Below are positions 4,098-63,299 of a stretch of DNA of 64,000 nucleotides, in pieces. Each line of letters begins with the position of its first letter. Within the stretch, counting starts at the first letter, position 1. A model generated the notes under the pieces. That model was given only the letters and a program-made list of their open reading frames with translations, had not been told where the DNA came from and did not search any database. Made by a program: the position numbers and the translations under genes. Origin of the DNA: Chloroflexota bacterium. Lineage in GTDB: Bacteria > Chloroflexota > UBA11872. Location of the stretch: positions 62,001 through 126,000 of the forward strand of contig JAJECS010000024.1 in NCBI GenBank assembly GCA_022821905.1, in the 5' to 3' direction.

Positions 4098-4619
4098 TTA
4101 TCCCTTAGTTCCCGGCATTTCAGGAAACATTGTGGCGCGAAGCTCGGCCAGCCGGCTCCAGCGCGGATCGATTGCGGCTTCGGCGGGCTTCTCGGAACTC
4201 TCCAATCCGGGACACTCCGACCGGCAAACCGGCATGATCGGCAGCGCGGCAATCAGGCCCTCGGCCAGGAACGGCGTCAGATCGAGGTTGTGCTGATCGT
4301 CGAGCGGCCACACAGCTTCGAGACTCGATTCCTCGGTCGCAGCCCCGGCTGAGTCAATCAAGAATTCGCCGTCAGCCTCGAAGCGCAAGGTCTGGCGGGC
4401 GGGCTCCAGGCATCGCGCGCACGGTTGCTCGACCGACGCCTCGAACTCGCCGGATGCGTGGATGGCTCCGCTCAGGCGCACCAGGCGCACGTGGCCCGCC
4501 ACCGAGGTGACCAATTCGGCGACGTCGAGCGCCTCGGGCGGCGCAAGGACGTCGCACCGCCGGCTGGTCCCGGGCGGCTCGCGCACGAATGCCGCGACGT
4601 TGAACACGAAGTCGTTCAC
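4098..4619 (-). CDS. YceD/DUF177 family protein
   Basis: 173 residues of the DUF177 family, linked in other bacteria and plastids to 23S rRNA accumulation. Cysteine pairs are seen at EQPCARCLEP (near residue 85) and in CRSECPGL near the C-terminus, as is usual for the family. It is 9 bp upstream of rpmF, its canonical partner. The molecular function is still poorly defined; the family call rests on the cysteine pattern and the gene order. Confidence 0.85.
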   Translation of the reverse strand: MNDFVFNVAAFVREPPGTSRRCDVLAPPEALDVAELVTSVAGHVRLVRLSGAIHASGEFEASVEQPCARCLEPARQTLRFEADGEFLIDSAGAATEESSLEAVWPLDDQHNLDLTPFLAEGLIAALPIMPVCRSECPGLESSEKPAEAAIDPRWSRLAELRATMFPEMPGTKG

Positions 4620-4641: not shown

Positions 4642-5124
4642 CTAGACGGTCTCTTCGTCGCCGATTTCGGTGATTCCGGCGGAATCCTCGTCGAGCGCCG
4701 AAATGCCGCGGCGAATGCTCGCCAGGTGAGAAATCAGGCGATGCTCGATGTCGCGCAGCATGTTGAGCGCATAGACGTCCATTTCCTCCCGCGACGCCTC
4801 GGTTCGCTCTTCCGCCGCCTCGATGATCTGCTCGGCCCGCGCTTCGGCCTGGCGGACGATCTCCTCGTCGCGCAGCATTTGATCGGCCTGCTCACGCGCC
4901 TGCTGGATGATCTGCTCGGCCTCCATCTGCGCCGATTGCGGAATCTGCTCACGCTCCCGCAACACCCGCCGCGCCTCCCGGACTTCCTCCGGAATGCGAA
5001 TGCGCATTTCGTCGACGATCTCCAGCAATGCGCGCTCGTCCATCACGATGCGGCGCATCATCGGCACGCGCTGGGCAGCGGTCACCAGGGCCTCGAGACG
5101 TTCGATCAGGTTGATGAGATCGAT
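4642..5124 (-). CDS. Coiled-coil protein of the Chloroflexi/Actinobacteria 'cell division initiation-like' family; apparent ATC start
   Basis: Long charged helix (Glu/Arg/Ala/Gln-rich heptads from about residue 45 to 125) with no membrane segment; function not established. The reading frame includes the N-terminal stretch IDLINLIERLEALV ahead of AAQRVPMMRRIVMDERALL. From memory, homologues in related phyla begin just before this stretch, with the pattern L-E-L-V-x-x-x-R-x-P-M. Between the coaD stop (TAG, same frame) and this stretch there is no ATG, GTG or TTG. An ATC codon at 5124-5122 lies 9 nt after a perfect GAGGAGG (5134-5140). The first canonical start is a GTG at 5085, giving 147 aa without the conserved N-terminus. 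Such proteins are often mislabelled as ATP synthase b subunits. It lies between coaD and yceD. Confidence 0.75.
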   Translation of the reverse strand: MDLINLIERLEALVTAAQRVPMMRRIVMDERALLEIVDEMRIRIPEEVREARRVLREREQIPQSAQMEAEQIIQQAREQADQMLRDEEIVRQAEARAEQIIEAAEERTEASREEMDVYALNMLRDIEHRLISHLASIRRGISALDEDSAGITEIGDEETV

Positions 5125-5130
5125 GGCTAG

Positions 5131-5622
5131 CTACCTCCTCGGCGACGCATCGCCGTACTTTGCGGCCACGGCCGTGGCGACGTTTGCTGGCACAAACGGC
5201 GCCACGCTTCGGCCAAGGGCACCGATCTCCCGCACCAACGACGAACTGACGTAAGCATGCTCGGGCGCTGAGAGGAAGAACACCGTATCCAACTCCGGCG
5301 CCAGACGGCGATTCATGGCCGACAGCGCAAACTCATACTCGAAGTCAGACACTGCTCGCAGCCCGCGCACCAATATGCTCGCTCCAATGTCCCGCGCAAA
5401 GTCTACCGTGAGTCCCCGATAGTCGCGCACCGAGACGTTGGGCAAGTGGGCAGTTGCCTCCCGCACCAGCGCGACGCGTTCCTCGGTGGAAAAGAGCGTG
5501 CGCGATTCCGGCTGTTCGTAGACCCCGGCCACCACTTCGGCATGGCAGGCCGCGCTGCGCGCGATGAGGTCTAAGTGGCCGTTGGTGGCCGGGTCGAATG
5601 TGGCAGCAAAAAGCGCCCGCAT
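5131..5622 (-). CDS. coaD: Pantetheine-phosphate adenylyltransferase (PPAT)
   Basis: Penultimate step of CoA biosynthesis: 4'-phosphopantetheine plus ATP gives dephospho-CoA. 163 residues, the normal length. The nucleotidyltransferase motif TNGHLDLI sits at residues 13-20; the family usually has GSFDPxTxGH, here ATFDPATNGH. RGLRAVSDFEYE near residue 90 and the C-terminal EHAYVSSSLVREI are diagnostic. It follows rsmD by 30 bp; rsmD-coaD is a very common pair. Confidence 0.95.
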   Translation of the reverse strand: MRALFAATFDPATNGHLDLIARSAACHAEVVAGVYEQPESRTLFSTEERVALVREATAHLPNVSVRDYRGLTVDFARDIGASILVRGLRAVSDFEYEFALSAMNRRLAPELDTVFFLSAPEHAYVSSSLVREIGALGRSVAPFVPANVATAVAAKYGDASPRR

Positions 5623-18077: not shown

Positions 18078-18730
18078 GGCTCGACGGGAGGATCGCTCCA
18101 GGGACGCAGCGTCACGGGATCCACTCGCCGCGGGGGCTCCCGCAGTCGTTCGGCTTCGACGATGGCCCACACCTGGTCCGCCGCAGCGTCGAGCGCGCCC
18201 GTGGCGTTGGGCACCCGATAGTCCGCCCGGGAGGCAAAGTCCATTTCGAAATCGAGCATGGCCTGGAGACGCCGCTCGGCCTCGTCCGGAGACTCGGTGC
18301 CGCGCTGGCGGATGCGACGCACCGCCTCCTCCACCGACGGCGCCTCGATAAAGATCACAACGGCCGCCGGGATCCGGCGCTGCAACTCGCGCGCGCCCTG
18401 CACGTCCAGCCGCAACACCACGTCCTGGCCGGCTTCAAGCGGATCCTGGACCTGATGCAGCGGGGTGCCGTAGAGCCGCCCGTAGACGCGCGCCGACTCC
18501 AGGAACCATCCCGAGCGTAGGCGCGACTCGAATTCGGCCGGTTCGAGAAAGAAGTGATCGCGTCCGTCGACCTCACCTTCACGCGGCGCACGTGTGACCG
18601 CGGTCGTCACCCAGGTCAGATCGACGCCACGGCCTCGCAGGGTGCGGAGCACGCTGTCCTTGCCCGCCGCGGACGGCGCCGTCACCAGGAACAGCAGTCC
18701 GCGTGGCGGTGGGGCGGCATCGAGGCTCAT
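18074..18730 (-). CDS. gmk: Guanylate kinase
   Basis: Phosphorylates GMP to GDP. 218 residues. The GMP-binding lobe is typical (VTRAPREGEVDGRDHFF, then FLESARVYGRLYGTP). The P-loop is unusual, APSAAGKDS in place of GPSGxGKxT/S: the first glycine is Ala and an Asp follows the Lys, a GKDS ending also seen in PhnN-type kinases. Overall the lid and GMP site favour Gmk over PhnN. ATG at 18730 overlaps the prmC stop (ATGA) and its own stop overlaps the priA start (GTGA). Confidence 0.88.
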   Translation of the reverse strand: MSLDAAPPPRGLLFLVTAPSAAGKDSVLRTLRGRGVDLTWVTTAVTRAPREGEVDGRDHFFLEPAEFESRLRSGWFLESARVYGRLYGTPLHQVQDPLEAGQDVVLRLDVQGARELQRRIPAAVVIFIEAPSVEEAVRRIRQRGTESPDEAERRLQAMLDFEMDFASRADYRVPNATGALDAAADQVWAIVEAERLREPPRRVDPVTLRPWSDPPVEP

Positions 18731-60878: not shown

Positions 60879-62704
60879 TCCGCCGGGGACTCTTCCGGTT
60901 CTTCGCGCACCATCAGATGCAACTCGTCCAACTGCTCAGGCGCCAGCGGCCCAGGCGCGCCCAGCATGAGGTCGAATCCGGCCTGGTTCTTGGGGAACAC
61001 GGTGACGTCGCGCAGGTTCTCGGTGCCGCCCAGCAGCATCGCCAGCCGGTCCACGCCCATCGCGATGCCGCCGTGCGGCGGCGCGCCGTAGGTAAACGCG
61101 TCCAACATGTGGCCGATGCTGTCGTCGATCTCCGCCTCGCTGTAGCCCATCACCTGGTAGATGCGCCGCAGGTCCTTGGCGCGATGAGCGCGGATGCTGC
61201 CGCCGCCGATCTCGTGCCCGTTGCCGATCAAGTCGTATTGCTTGGAGAGGGCGCGTCCGGGGTCCGTATAGAGCAGATCGAATGAGTCGTCGGCCGGCGA
61301 GCAAAACGGGTTGTGGCTGAACGTAAAGCCGCCGGTTTCCTCATCGATCTCGAAGAGCGGAAAGTCGATGATCCACACGAACGCCAACTGATTCGGCGGG
61401 ATCAAGTCAAGGGCCCGGCCCAGGTGCACGCGCAGGGCCCCAAGCGCTTCGGCCACGACCGGTGCGGATCCGGCGACGATGCAGACGAGGTCTCCCCGGT
61501 TCGCTCCGGCGTTCCGCGCCGCCTCGCGGAGCGCGTCCTCGCCGAAGAATCGGCTGAGCGGTGAGCGGATGGAGCCATCGTCGTTCAACGCGATGGTCGC
61601 CATGCCGGCCGCCCCGGCCTCTTGCACGATGTCCTGCAACGCGCTGACCTCGCGCCGCGAGTAGCCGGCGATGCCGGGAGCCACCACGGCCTTCACCTGG
61701 CCACCGTCGGCGATGGCGTCATCGAACGCGCGGAATCCACGACCGGATACATCCGGGGCCACGTCCACGAGCTCGACGCCGAAGCGCACGTCCGGTTTGT
61801 CGGTGCCGAACCGGCGGATCGCTTCCGCGTGACTGATGCGCGGGAAGGGAACCTCCGCCAGGTCCTGAGACGACAACTTGTCGACGATGTGCAGATAGAG
61901 CGACTCGATGAGTTGCAGCAGGTCTTCGCGCTCCACGAAGGCCATCTCGATATCAAGCTGGGTGTGCTCGAACACGCGGTCCGCCCGCAGGTCCTCGTCC
62001 CGGTAGCAGCGCGCCAACTGGAAGTAGCGGTCCAGTCCGGCCACCATGATCAGCTGCTTCATCTGCTGGGGCGACTGCGGCAGGGCGTAGAATTCCCCCG
62101 GATGCAGCCGGCTGGGCACGACGAAATCACGCGATCCCTCGGGCGTGCTGCGGACGAGCGTCGGCGTCTCCAGCTCCAGGAAATCACGCGCCCACAGGTA
62201 CTCGCGCATCTCGCGCACGACCTTGTGGCGCAGCTCGATCAGTTCACGCAGACGACGGCGACGCAGGTCCAAGTAGCGGTGGCGCAGGCGGACGCTCTCG
62301 TCCACGTTGGTCTCGGCCGTGATCTCGAACGGCGGCGCCTTCGACTCCGCCAGCACCGTCACGGCCTGCACGCCAAGCTCAACGTCGCCCGTTTCCAGGT
62401 CGGGATTGGCGGTGCCCGGCGGCCGGTCGCGAACCGGCCCGGACACGCTGAGCACAAATTCCGACCGCGCGCGGCTGGCGGCCGCGTGCGCTTCCGGCGC
62501 GTCGTCTCGATTGATCACAATCTGCGTGATGCCGTAGCGGTCGCGCAGGTCGATGAAGATCAGCCCGCCCTGGTCGCGTCGACGGTGCAGCCAGCCGTTG
62601 AGCGTGACAGCGTGGCCGGCGTGCTCAAGTCGCAATTCGCCACAAGTGTGCGTGCGCTGAGGCCATGTGGCGCGCAGCGGTGCGGGTCGTTCAGCGGAAG
62701 TCAC
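60875..62704 (-). CDS. aspS: Aspartyl-tRNA synthetase (bacterial type)
   Basis: 609 residues. N-terminal OB-fold anticodon domain (VTLNGWLHRRRDQGGLIFIDLRDR), class II core with EFYALPQSPQQMKQLIMVAG, RCYRDEDLRADRVFEHTQLDIE (motif 2 area), a bacterial GAD insertion at about 300-420, and motif 3 GIAMGVDRLAMLLGG. Whether it also charges tRNA-Asn is not decided from sequence; no gatCAB or asnS is in view. It lies 34 bp downstream of infC. Confidence 0.95.
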   Translation of the reverse strand: MTSAERPAPLRATWPQRTHTCGELRLEHAGHAVTLNGWLHRRRDQGGLIFIDLRDRYGITQIVINRDDAPEAHAAASRARSEFVLSVSGPVRDRPPGTANPDLETGDVELGVQAVTVLAESKAPPFEITAETNVDESVRLRHRYLDLRRRRLRELIELRHKVVREMREYLWARDFLELETPTLVRSTPEGSRDFVVPSRLHPGEFYALPQSPQQMKQLIMVAGLDRYFQLARCYRDEDLRADRVFEHTQLDIEMAFVEREDLLQLIESLYLHIVDKLSSQDLAEVPFPRISHAEAIRRFGTDKPDVRFGVELVDVAPDVSGRGFRAFDDAIADGGQVKAVVAPGIAGYSRREVSALQDIVQEAGAAGMATIALNDDGSIRSPLSRFFGEDALREAARNAGANRGDLVCIVAGSAPVVAEALGALRVHLGRALDLIPPNQLAFVWIIDFPLFEIDEETGGFTFSHNPFCSPADDSFDLLYTDPGRALSKQYDLIGNGHEIGGGSIRAHRAKDLRRIYQVMGYSEAEIDDSIGHMLDAFTYGAPPHGGIAMGVDRLAMLLGGTENLRDVTVFPKNQAGFDLMLGAPGPLAPEQLDELHLMVREEPEESPAD

Positions 62705-62738: not shown

Positions 62739-63299
62739 CTAGGCTCGCCCGCTCGGCGCCATGATCACGCTGAGCACCCGGCCGTCCTGCTCGGGCATGA
62801 TGTCCCGCTCGACCACCCCGCTATCGGCCAGCGTCTGCTTGACGCGCTCGAGAATGCGAACCCCGAACTCGGGATGGATGCGTTCGCGAGCGCGAAACCG
62901 AACCGTGGCCTTCACTTTATTCCCATCCTTGAGGAAACGCTCCAGCCGGCGGATGAGGAACTCAAGATCGTGCTCACGAGTGGCTGGGCGAAATCGAACT
63001 TCCTTGACCGTGCCGGCCTTCTGGCGCTTCTTGCCTTCCCCTTGCTTGCGTGTTTGGTGGTATTTGAACTTGCCGTAGTCGAGGATCTTGGTGACCGGCG
63101 GATGAGCGTCCGGCGAAACTTCCACCAGGTCAAGCCCGCGCCCGCGCGCCACCGCCAGGGCTTGCTCAGTCGGAACTATTCCGATCTGCTGACCGTCTTC
63201 GTCAATCAGGCGAACTTCGCGGATCCGGATCTCATCGTTGACCCGGGGGCCTTTGGGTCGCGTTCGCGGTTCCGCAAATCGATGGTGGGGGGCTCGCAG
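62739..63299 (-). CDS. infC: Translation initiation factor IF-3, apparent CTG start
   Basis: IF3 binds 30S and rejects non-canonical start codons and wrong initiator tRNAs. The first ATG/GTG in frame (63152) would drop the whole N-domain. The frame in fact continues through VNDEIRIREVRLIDEDGQQ and IGIVPTEQALAVARG. CTG at 63299 follows AAGGAG (63306-63311) by 6 nt, giving 186 residues. There is no ATG/GTG/TTG between it and the in-frame TGA upstream. Non-AUG starts at infC are well known as an IF3 autoregulation device. N-domain, lysine-rich linker (KQGEGKKRQKAG) and C-domain are all present. Confidence 0.93.
   Translation of the reverse strand: MRAPHHRFAEPRTRPKGPRVNDEIRIREVRLIDEDGQQIGIVPTEQALAVARGRGLDLVEVSPDAHPPVTKILDYGKFKYHQTRKQGEGKKRQKAGTVKEVRFRPATREHDLEFLIRRLERFLKDGNKVKATVRFRARERIHPEFGVRILERVKQTLADSGVVERDIMPEQDGRVLSVIMAPSGRA

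Follow-up and report, generated by a model that had tools for sequence, protein, structure and literature searches.

Gene order and the start of gene X

The window, the whole 64,000-nucleotide stretch of Chloroflexota DNA analyzed here (positions 62,001 to 126,000 of contig JAJECS010000024.1), carries a coiled-coil gene, called gene X below, between coaD and yceD, all three on the minus strand. X occupies 4642..5124 and consists of 160 codons and a stop whose end lies at 4642. Its 5' neighbor coaD (5131..5622) matches TIGR01510 with 176.8 bits against a cut-off of 103.3, and its 3' neighbor yceD (DUF177; 4098..4619), which has a GTG start in the list of open reading frames, matches PF02620 with 67 bits against a cut-off of 33.2. 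A short frame downstream near yceD is, by its reading, presumably that of ribosomal protein L32.

Across the coaD/X junction the minus strand reads ...GCCGAGGAGGTAGCTAGCCATCGATCTCATCAACCTG..., and coaD ends in TCG CCG AGG AGG TAG (5145-5131). The first-pass annotation had proposed that X opens at an ATC directly behind a perfect GAGGAGG. Both elements are present on the minus strand, the ATC at 5124-5122 (5122..5124 in feature coordinates) and the Shine-Dalgarno (SD) motif at 5140-5134 (5134..5140), where it overlaps the final coaD codons. The distance of 9 nt between them was confirmed, as was the position of the coaD TAG (5131..5133), which lies in the X frame and is separated from the ATC by six bases (CTAGCC). 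No ATG, GTG or TTG intervenes, and the window sequence holds none in frame from the coaD TAG to codon 14 of X, a GTG (5083..5085) that is the first in-frame canonical start. No SD-backed canonical start was found at the conserved N-terminus of X in the window.

Conservation within the order

X is present in 6/6 genomes of the genus, 19/19 of the family, 24/24 of the order, 39/41 of the class and 343/400 of the sampled phylum genomes. The comparison of start codons across the family, which the first-pass annotation had recommended as a check, places ATC at codon 1 in 23 of the 24 order homologues and finds weak, near-cognate starts in many families of the phylum. The one exception in the order, G023, has an X with an N-terminal extension and an ATG 12 codons upstream. 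All 23 ATC loci carry GGAGG or GGGAG at an aligned spacing of 8-9. The other isoleucine codons near the N-terminus behave differently in the same 23 loci: that of Ile-4 is ATC in 8, ATA in 11, ATT in 3 and GTC in 1, and that of Ile-7 is ATC in 7 and ATT in 16. Because these codons vary while codon 1 is fixed, the ATC at codon 1 is conserved beyond chance. A sequencing error at the ATC is unlikely, as all six genomes of the genus and one single-contig genome (G018, locus L009) agree on it.

Start codons across the phylum

Start codons were read at 124 loci from the 343 phylum genomes with a match, comprising every match of the class (39) together with 85 of the 304 others, the latter mostly one per genus from the best rows listed, so that frequencies are not unbiased; a fragment lacking the start (L021) was left out of the counts. 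A near-cognate codon with an SD match occurs at 65 of the 124 loci (ATC 54, ACG 5, ATA 4, CTG 2), spread over 14 of 37 families, and a canonical codon with an SD match at 35 (ATG 27, GTG 6, TTG 2). The rest are canonical without SD (9), near-cognate without SD (3) or of another kind (12, for the most part N-terminal extensions). The CTG at L099, one of the two such loci, is in doubt, since the profile match there starts only at position 5 and X overlaps coaD; leaving this locus out reduces the weak-start families to 13. Homologues that use ATG, GTG or TTG mostly have that codon exactly at the ATC position, which bears out the earlier claim that the N-terminus of X coincides with the starts of its homologues; a minority have an N-terminal extension instead. 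At L104, L105, L110 and L116 (families f48, f29 and f45), codon 1 is GTC, the start codon of Streptomyces sigR, and an upstream ATG or GTG suggests that these are extensions instead.

The near-cognate and canonical classes are set by codon, and a check free of that definition comes from asking what stands at position 1. An SD match at a spacing of 3-11 is found at 104 X loci, and position 1 is ATG or a one-base neighbor of it in 100 of them; the other four (L074, L110, L115, L116) have an in-frame ATG upstream. A second collection, whose records are labeled Chloroflexi, Chloroflexota or groups such as Anaerolineae and Limnocylindrales and are nearly all metagenome-assembled, supplied 80 loci, of which 33 repeat sequences already counted, one is cut and 46 are new. 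Position 1 of the new loci is ATG in 17, ATC in 15, GTG in 6, ATA in 4 and TTG in 4. All 46 thus have ATG or a one-base neighbor there (19 weak, 27 canonical), and an SD match accompanies 17 of the 19 weak codons. Together, 100/104 and 46/46 fit a start position and not an internal isoleucine codon. The codon ATT is absent from position 1 (0 of 58 isoleucine-type codons) and makes up 175 of 789 elsewhere in X genes, a depletion with a Fisher p of 1.8e-6 when kinship is ignored.

At 45 of the 65 near-cognate loci with an SD match, no in-frame ATG, GTG or TTG precedes the start before the upstream stop. The other 20 have such a codon upstream, and in 11 of these (8/8 loci of family f4, L062, L065 and L086) it is a GTG three codons up that lies on the SD itself, where it could hardly use that SD for its own initiation.

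Comparison with coaD, yceD, infC and other genes of the window

A blind rule was applied to X and to three other genes, counting as positive a gene that has an SD-backed start while none of its SD-backed starts is canonical. Positives number 62/124 for X, 68/103 for infC, 9/114 for coaD and 3/89 for yceD. This rule does not separate the genes cleanly. For coaD the best SD-backed start is near-cognate in 20/114 loci, compared with 68/124 for X, and at 25 of the 124 X loci the rule finds no SD-backed start within its limits. By a looser count, some canonical start is available in 110/114 coaD and 87/89 yceD loci. To judge from these sequences, the start pattern of X resembles that of infC, unlike those of coaD and yceD.

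The window holds its own infC, the gene for IF3 (62739..63299, minus strand; TIGR00168 over cut-off), with an apparent CTG start at 63299-63297 preceded by AAGGAG (63311-63306). If it does start with CTG, as it appears to, the window has two genes with a weak start, X and infC. CTG stands at this place in all 19 f1 loci; a TTG two codons earlier does not occur in all of them. With canonical and near-cognate codons both considered, the best SD-backed infC start at 103 Chloroflexota loci is ATC in 29, ATA in 26, CTG in 25, ATT in 13, ACG in 1 and ATG in 3, with 6 not called; a stricter rule gives 69 near-cognate, 0 canonical and 34 without a start. The infC genes of L223-L225, L228 and L229 (f3/f4) and of L167 have no SD-backed start by the first of these two rules. 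Several f3/f4 infC frames open far upstream, reaching up to 539 aa, which suggests an N-terminal extension and perhaps another control. Co-variation of weak starts between infC and X seemed promising within the order, where the infC of G023 carries ATG and its X an ATG extension. By inspection, the relation fails more widely: G039 (f5) combines an ATG start of X with an ATA start of infC.

A scan of 54 conserved window genes, whose first-conserved-residue estimate is too loose for start calls, found near-cognate codons backed by an SD match of at least 6 in four, namely X, infC and candidates at 18358 and 38545; the latter two are taken for noise. In L022 (G022), coaD lacks a canonical start in the region of its N-terminus. 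It reads GCGAGGTAACCC ATC AAA GCA there and possibly has another ATC start.

Shine-Dalgarno strength and spacing

The mean exact SD match in X is 5.9 bases in near-cognate members, compared with 5.2 in canonical ones, and is only 4 bases in the f2 loci. Matches of at least 5 bases at canonical starts occur in 9 of the 54 conserved window genes, by a loose rule in a stretch of 67% GC; such matches are thus uncommon in the window, which makes the strong SD of X conspicuous. Mean spacing, in a comparison that ignores kinship, is 8.4 for weak X starts, 6.2 for canonical X starts and 6.3 for canonical coaD and yceD starts in the same loci. Across the 124 and the 46 loci, spacing is mostly 8-9 at weak X starts and mostly 4-7 at canonical ones. 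This long spacing and the short match in f2 count against the weak-start reading.

Codon switching and alternative explanations

A tree was built from X, with codon 1 excluded, and coaD by a quick method, with good support for 45 of its 120 inner branches. On it, the near-cognate or canonical state changes at least 8 times and the exact codon 1 at least 19 times. Sister loci differ, as L059 has ACG and L119 has ATC, and in the clade of f13 and f24 all 21 rows have ATC, ACG, ATA or CTG; one of these, L060, has no SD match and a GTG three codons up. The comparison suggests that weakness persists even as the codon itself changes. Two substitutions separate ATC from ACG or CTG, so that weakness was probably regained, perhaps by way of an ATG stage that was later left.

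These data bear on the possibility that the ATC start serves no regulation and is neutral drift tolerated thanks to a strong SD. Several lineages do use ATG, and strong SDs can offset weak codons. Many relatives with ATG also imply that a weak start is not required everywhere. Against drift, whole clades remain weak through at least 19 codon changes, including all 21 rows of f13 and f24 (with L060 among them despite its missing SD match), and the two-step changes probably required weakness to be regained. Unregulated drift is therefore unlikely, but it keeps a real share of plausibility.

Somewhat less probable is termination-reinitiation, in which ribosomes finishing coaD at its TAG would restart at the AUC and coupling would be required. 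The coaD stop lies 5-7 bases 5' of the ATC in the order's 23 ATC loci, and in the window it follows directly after the SD. Outside the order, however, 38 of the 42 weak-start loci have a coaD-X gap of 19-165 bases, although their SDs and codons are of the same types; the remaining gaps are 1 (L045), 294 (L119) and -4 (L099), and at L120 no coaD was found. Coupling to coaD may help in the order. It cannot explain the whole family.

A start at the GTG of codon 14, with the stretch 5' of it untranslated, is very improbable. This GTG is the first in-frame canonical codon, and in the window genome a GAGG lies five bases upstream of it. Close relatives that start at its equivalent, the case that the first-pass annotation had named as evidence against the ATC, were sought and not found: among the 23 order loci, only 7 have GTG as codon 14, while 11 have CTG, 2 have CTC, and GTT, TTA and ATT occur in 1 each. 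Selection on the preceding codons also speaks against it. In f1, codons 2-13 have a pS of 0.562 and a pN of 0.037 (18 distinct rows), and pN/pS ranges from 0.063 to 0.376 in six partly overlapping groups of families. Codons 2-13 change nearly only synonymously and are thus under strong purifying selection and translated. Furthermore, many homologues have ATG, GTG or TTG at the ATC position. The structure predicted for X (mean pLDDT 90.3, pTM 0.44) has one helix spanning residues 2-15 and a second, long one spanning 30-153, so that codon 14 falls at the end of the first helix and a start there would remove this predicted element. The non-conserved GTG was rejected as the start.

Read-through of the coaD stop into a CoaD-coiled-coil fusion without a separate X start can practically be dismissed: the TAG is in the X frame in 18/19 f1 loci, which have an in-frame stop two codons 5' of the ATC, but the identity of the coaD stop varies among relatives (TAG, TAA or TGA), coaD and X are in different frames at two loci, L009 with a gap of 5 and L023 with a gap of 7, an extra in-frame TAA immediately 5' of the ATC in L024 and L025 makes the frame unreachable from upstream without read-through, and the gaps in other families run to tens or hundreds of bases.

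A probable weak start with proposed control by IF3

The reading preferred here is that X starts at a weak AUC that is read as fMet, gives a low yield and depends on IF3, and that selection maintains the weakness and not the codon. It is judged probable as a whole. The position of the start is well supported by comparison, as are the frame, the SD, translation from codon 2 on and the recurrence of the weak start. Formylmethionine, low yield and IF3 control are inferred, the last two by analogy with infC, sigR and the staphylococcal genes below.

According to this model, the strong SD would position the 30S subunit at the AUC, and the ordinary initiator tRNA, with anticodon CAU, would read AUC with a mismatch at the third position. 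The first residue of X would then be fMet and not Ile. The initiator stem is the mark of an initiator tRNA. The window genome has one initiator-type tRNA, with anticodon CAU (L264), and the one tRNA-Ile(GAU) found in it has no initiator stem, so AUC is most simply read by the initiator tRNA. A dedicated AUC initiator tRNA was considered and rejected on the 48 tRNA places of one genome that is ~93% complete. IF3 rejects near-cognate starts. The weak codon would thus lead to a low yield of X, which would probably be limiting and sensitive to IF3. Selection would keep this weakness while allowing ATA, ACG or CTG to stand in for ATC elsewhere; some lineages have ATG, GTG or TTG. The purpose may be to keep X low relative to its operon neighbors or to tie it to initiation capacity. 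A further proposal, put forward tentatively and with rather less than even confidence, is that X is a second phylum-wide gene controlled by IF3 and that the brake within coaD-X-yceD tracks IF3 and initiation fidelity.

Profile searches found no family over its cut-off for X; DivIVA (PF05103) reached 15.8 bits and ATP synthase subunit b (PF00430) 15 bits, both below the Pfam gathering score of 28. Structural comparison of the X model with 9 chains found none at a Z of at least 5, the best rows being prefoldins with Z of 4.5 and 4.3. Coiled coils of the DivIVA and ATP synthase b type share with X the long helix and the weak profile hits. They differ in that X lies below both cut-offs, and a Z below 5 is compatible with a relation.

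Comparison with known weak starts

X shares with infC, sigR and ccpN a non-canonical codon at the start of its homologues, a strong SD at a usable spacing and conservation. The weak start of infC is well known, and its product IF3 represses infC. Both infC and X have near-cognate codons behind an SD, a phylum-wide distribution and codon switching. They differ in that infC represses itself through its product, whereas the X protein has no known link to initiation, and in that canonical starts are common in X (44/124) and rare in Chloroflexota infC.

Streptomyces sigR offers a second comparison. As described in PMC5472188, its start is a conserved GTC (32 of 34 GTC, 2 GTT) with an extended ribosome-binding site, AGGAGGTG, and is repressed by IF3; the paper also quotes a range of 3- to 15-fold for the effect of IF3 on weak starts in E. 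coli. Like X, sigR has a conserved non-canonical start. The sigR start is experimentally tested and belongs to one genus, while that of X is predicted from sequence for a phylum-wide family. Moreover, the SD-backed codons of X are nearly all one base from ATG, unlike the GTC of sigR.

In Staphylococcus aureus, weak starts with an extended SD are found in infC (AUA), cvfC1 (AUU) and ccpN (AUA), and reporters of Staphylococcus cvfC1 and ccpN gave ~10% of AUG output in poor medium, according to PMC13009471. These genes are like X in their conserved weak start and strong SD. They are other genes of another phylum, and the SD spacing of X is mostly 8-9.

Significance

Conserved near-cognate starts are known for few bacterial genes and are called rare in PMC5472188 and PMC13009471. 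Among the matches listed in the open-licence PMC literature, there was no prior report of a weak start in X and nothing on Chloroflexota start codons; the listed papers include one on the IF3 of Chloroflexus aurantiacus (PMC8270711) and one on anti-SD classes. By sequence comparison, X would add a gene to the known class whose weak, SD-backed starts are conserved, and its weak start is spread unusually widely. Gene finders limited to ATG, GTG and TTG are expected to start X 13 codons too far in, a mis-start that cuts off its predicted N-terminal helix. With its natural switches among ATC, ATA, ACG, CTG and ATG at the start codon, X lends itself to comparative study of why weak starts persist.
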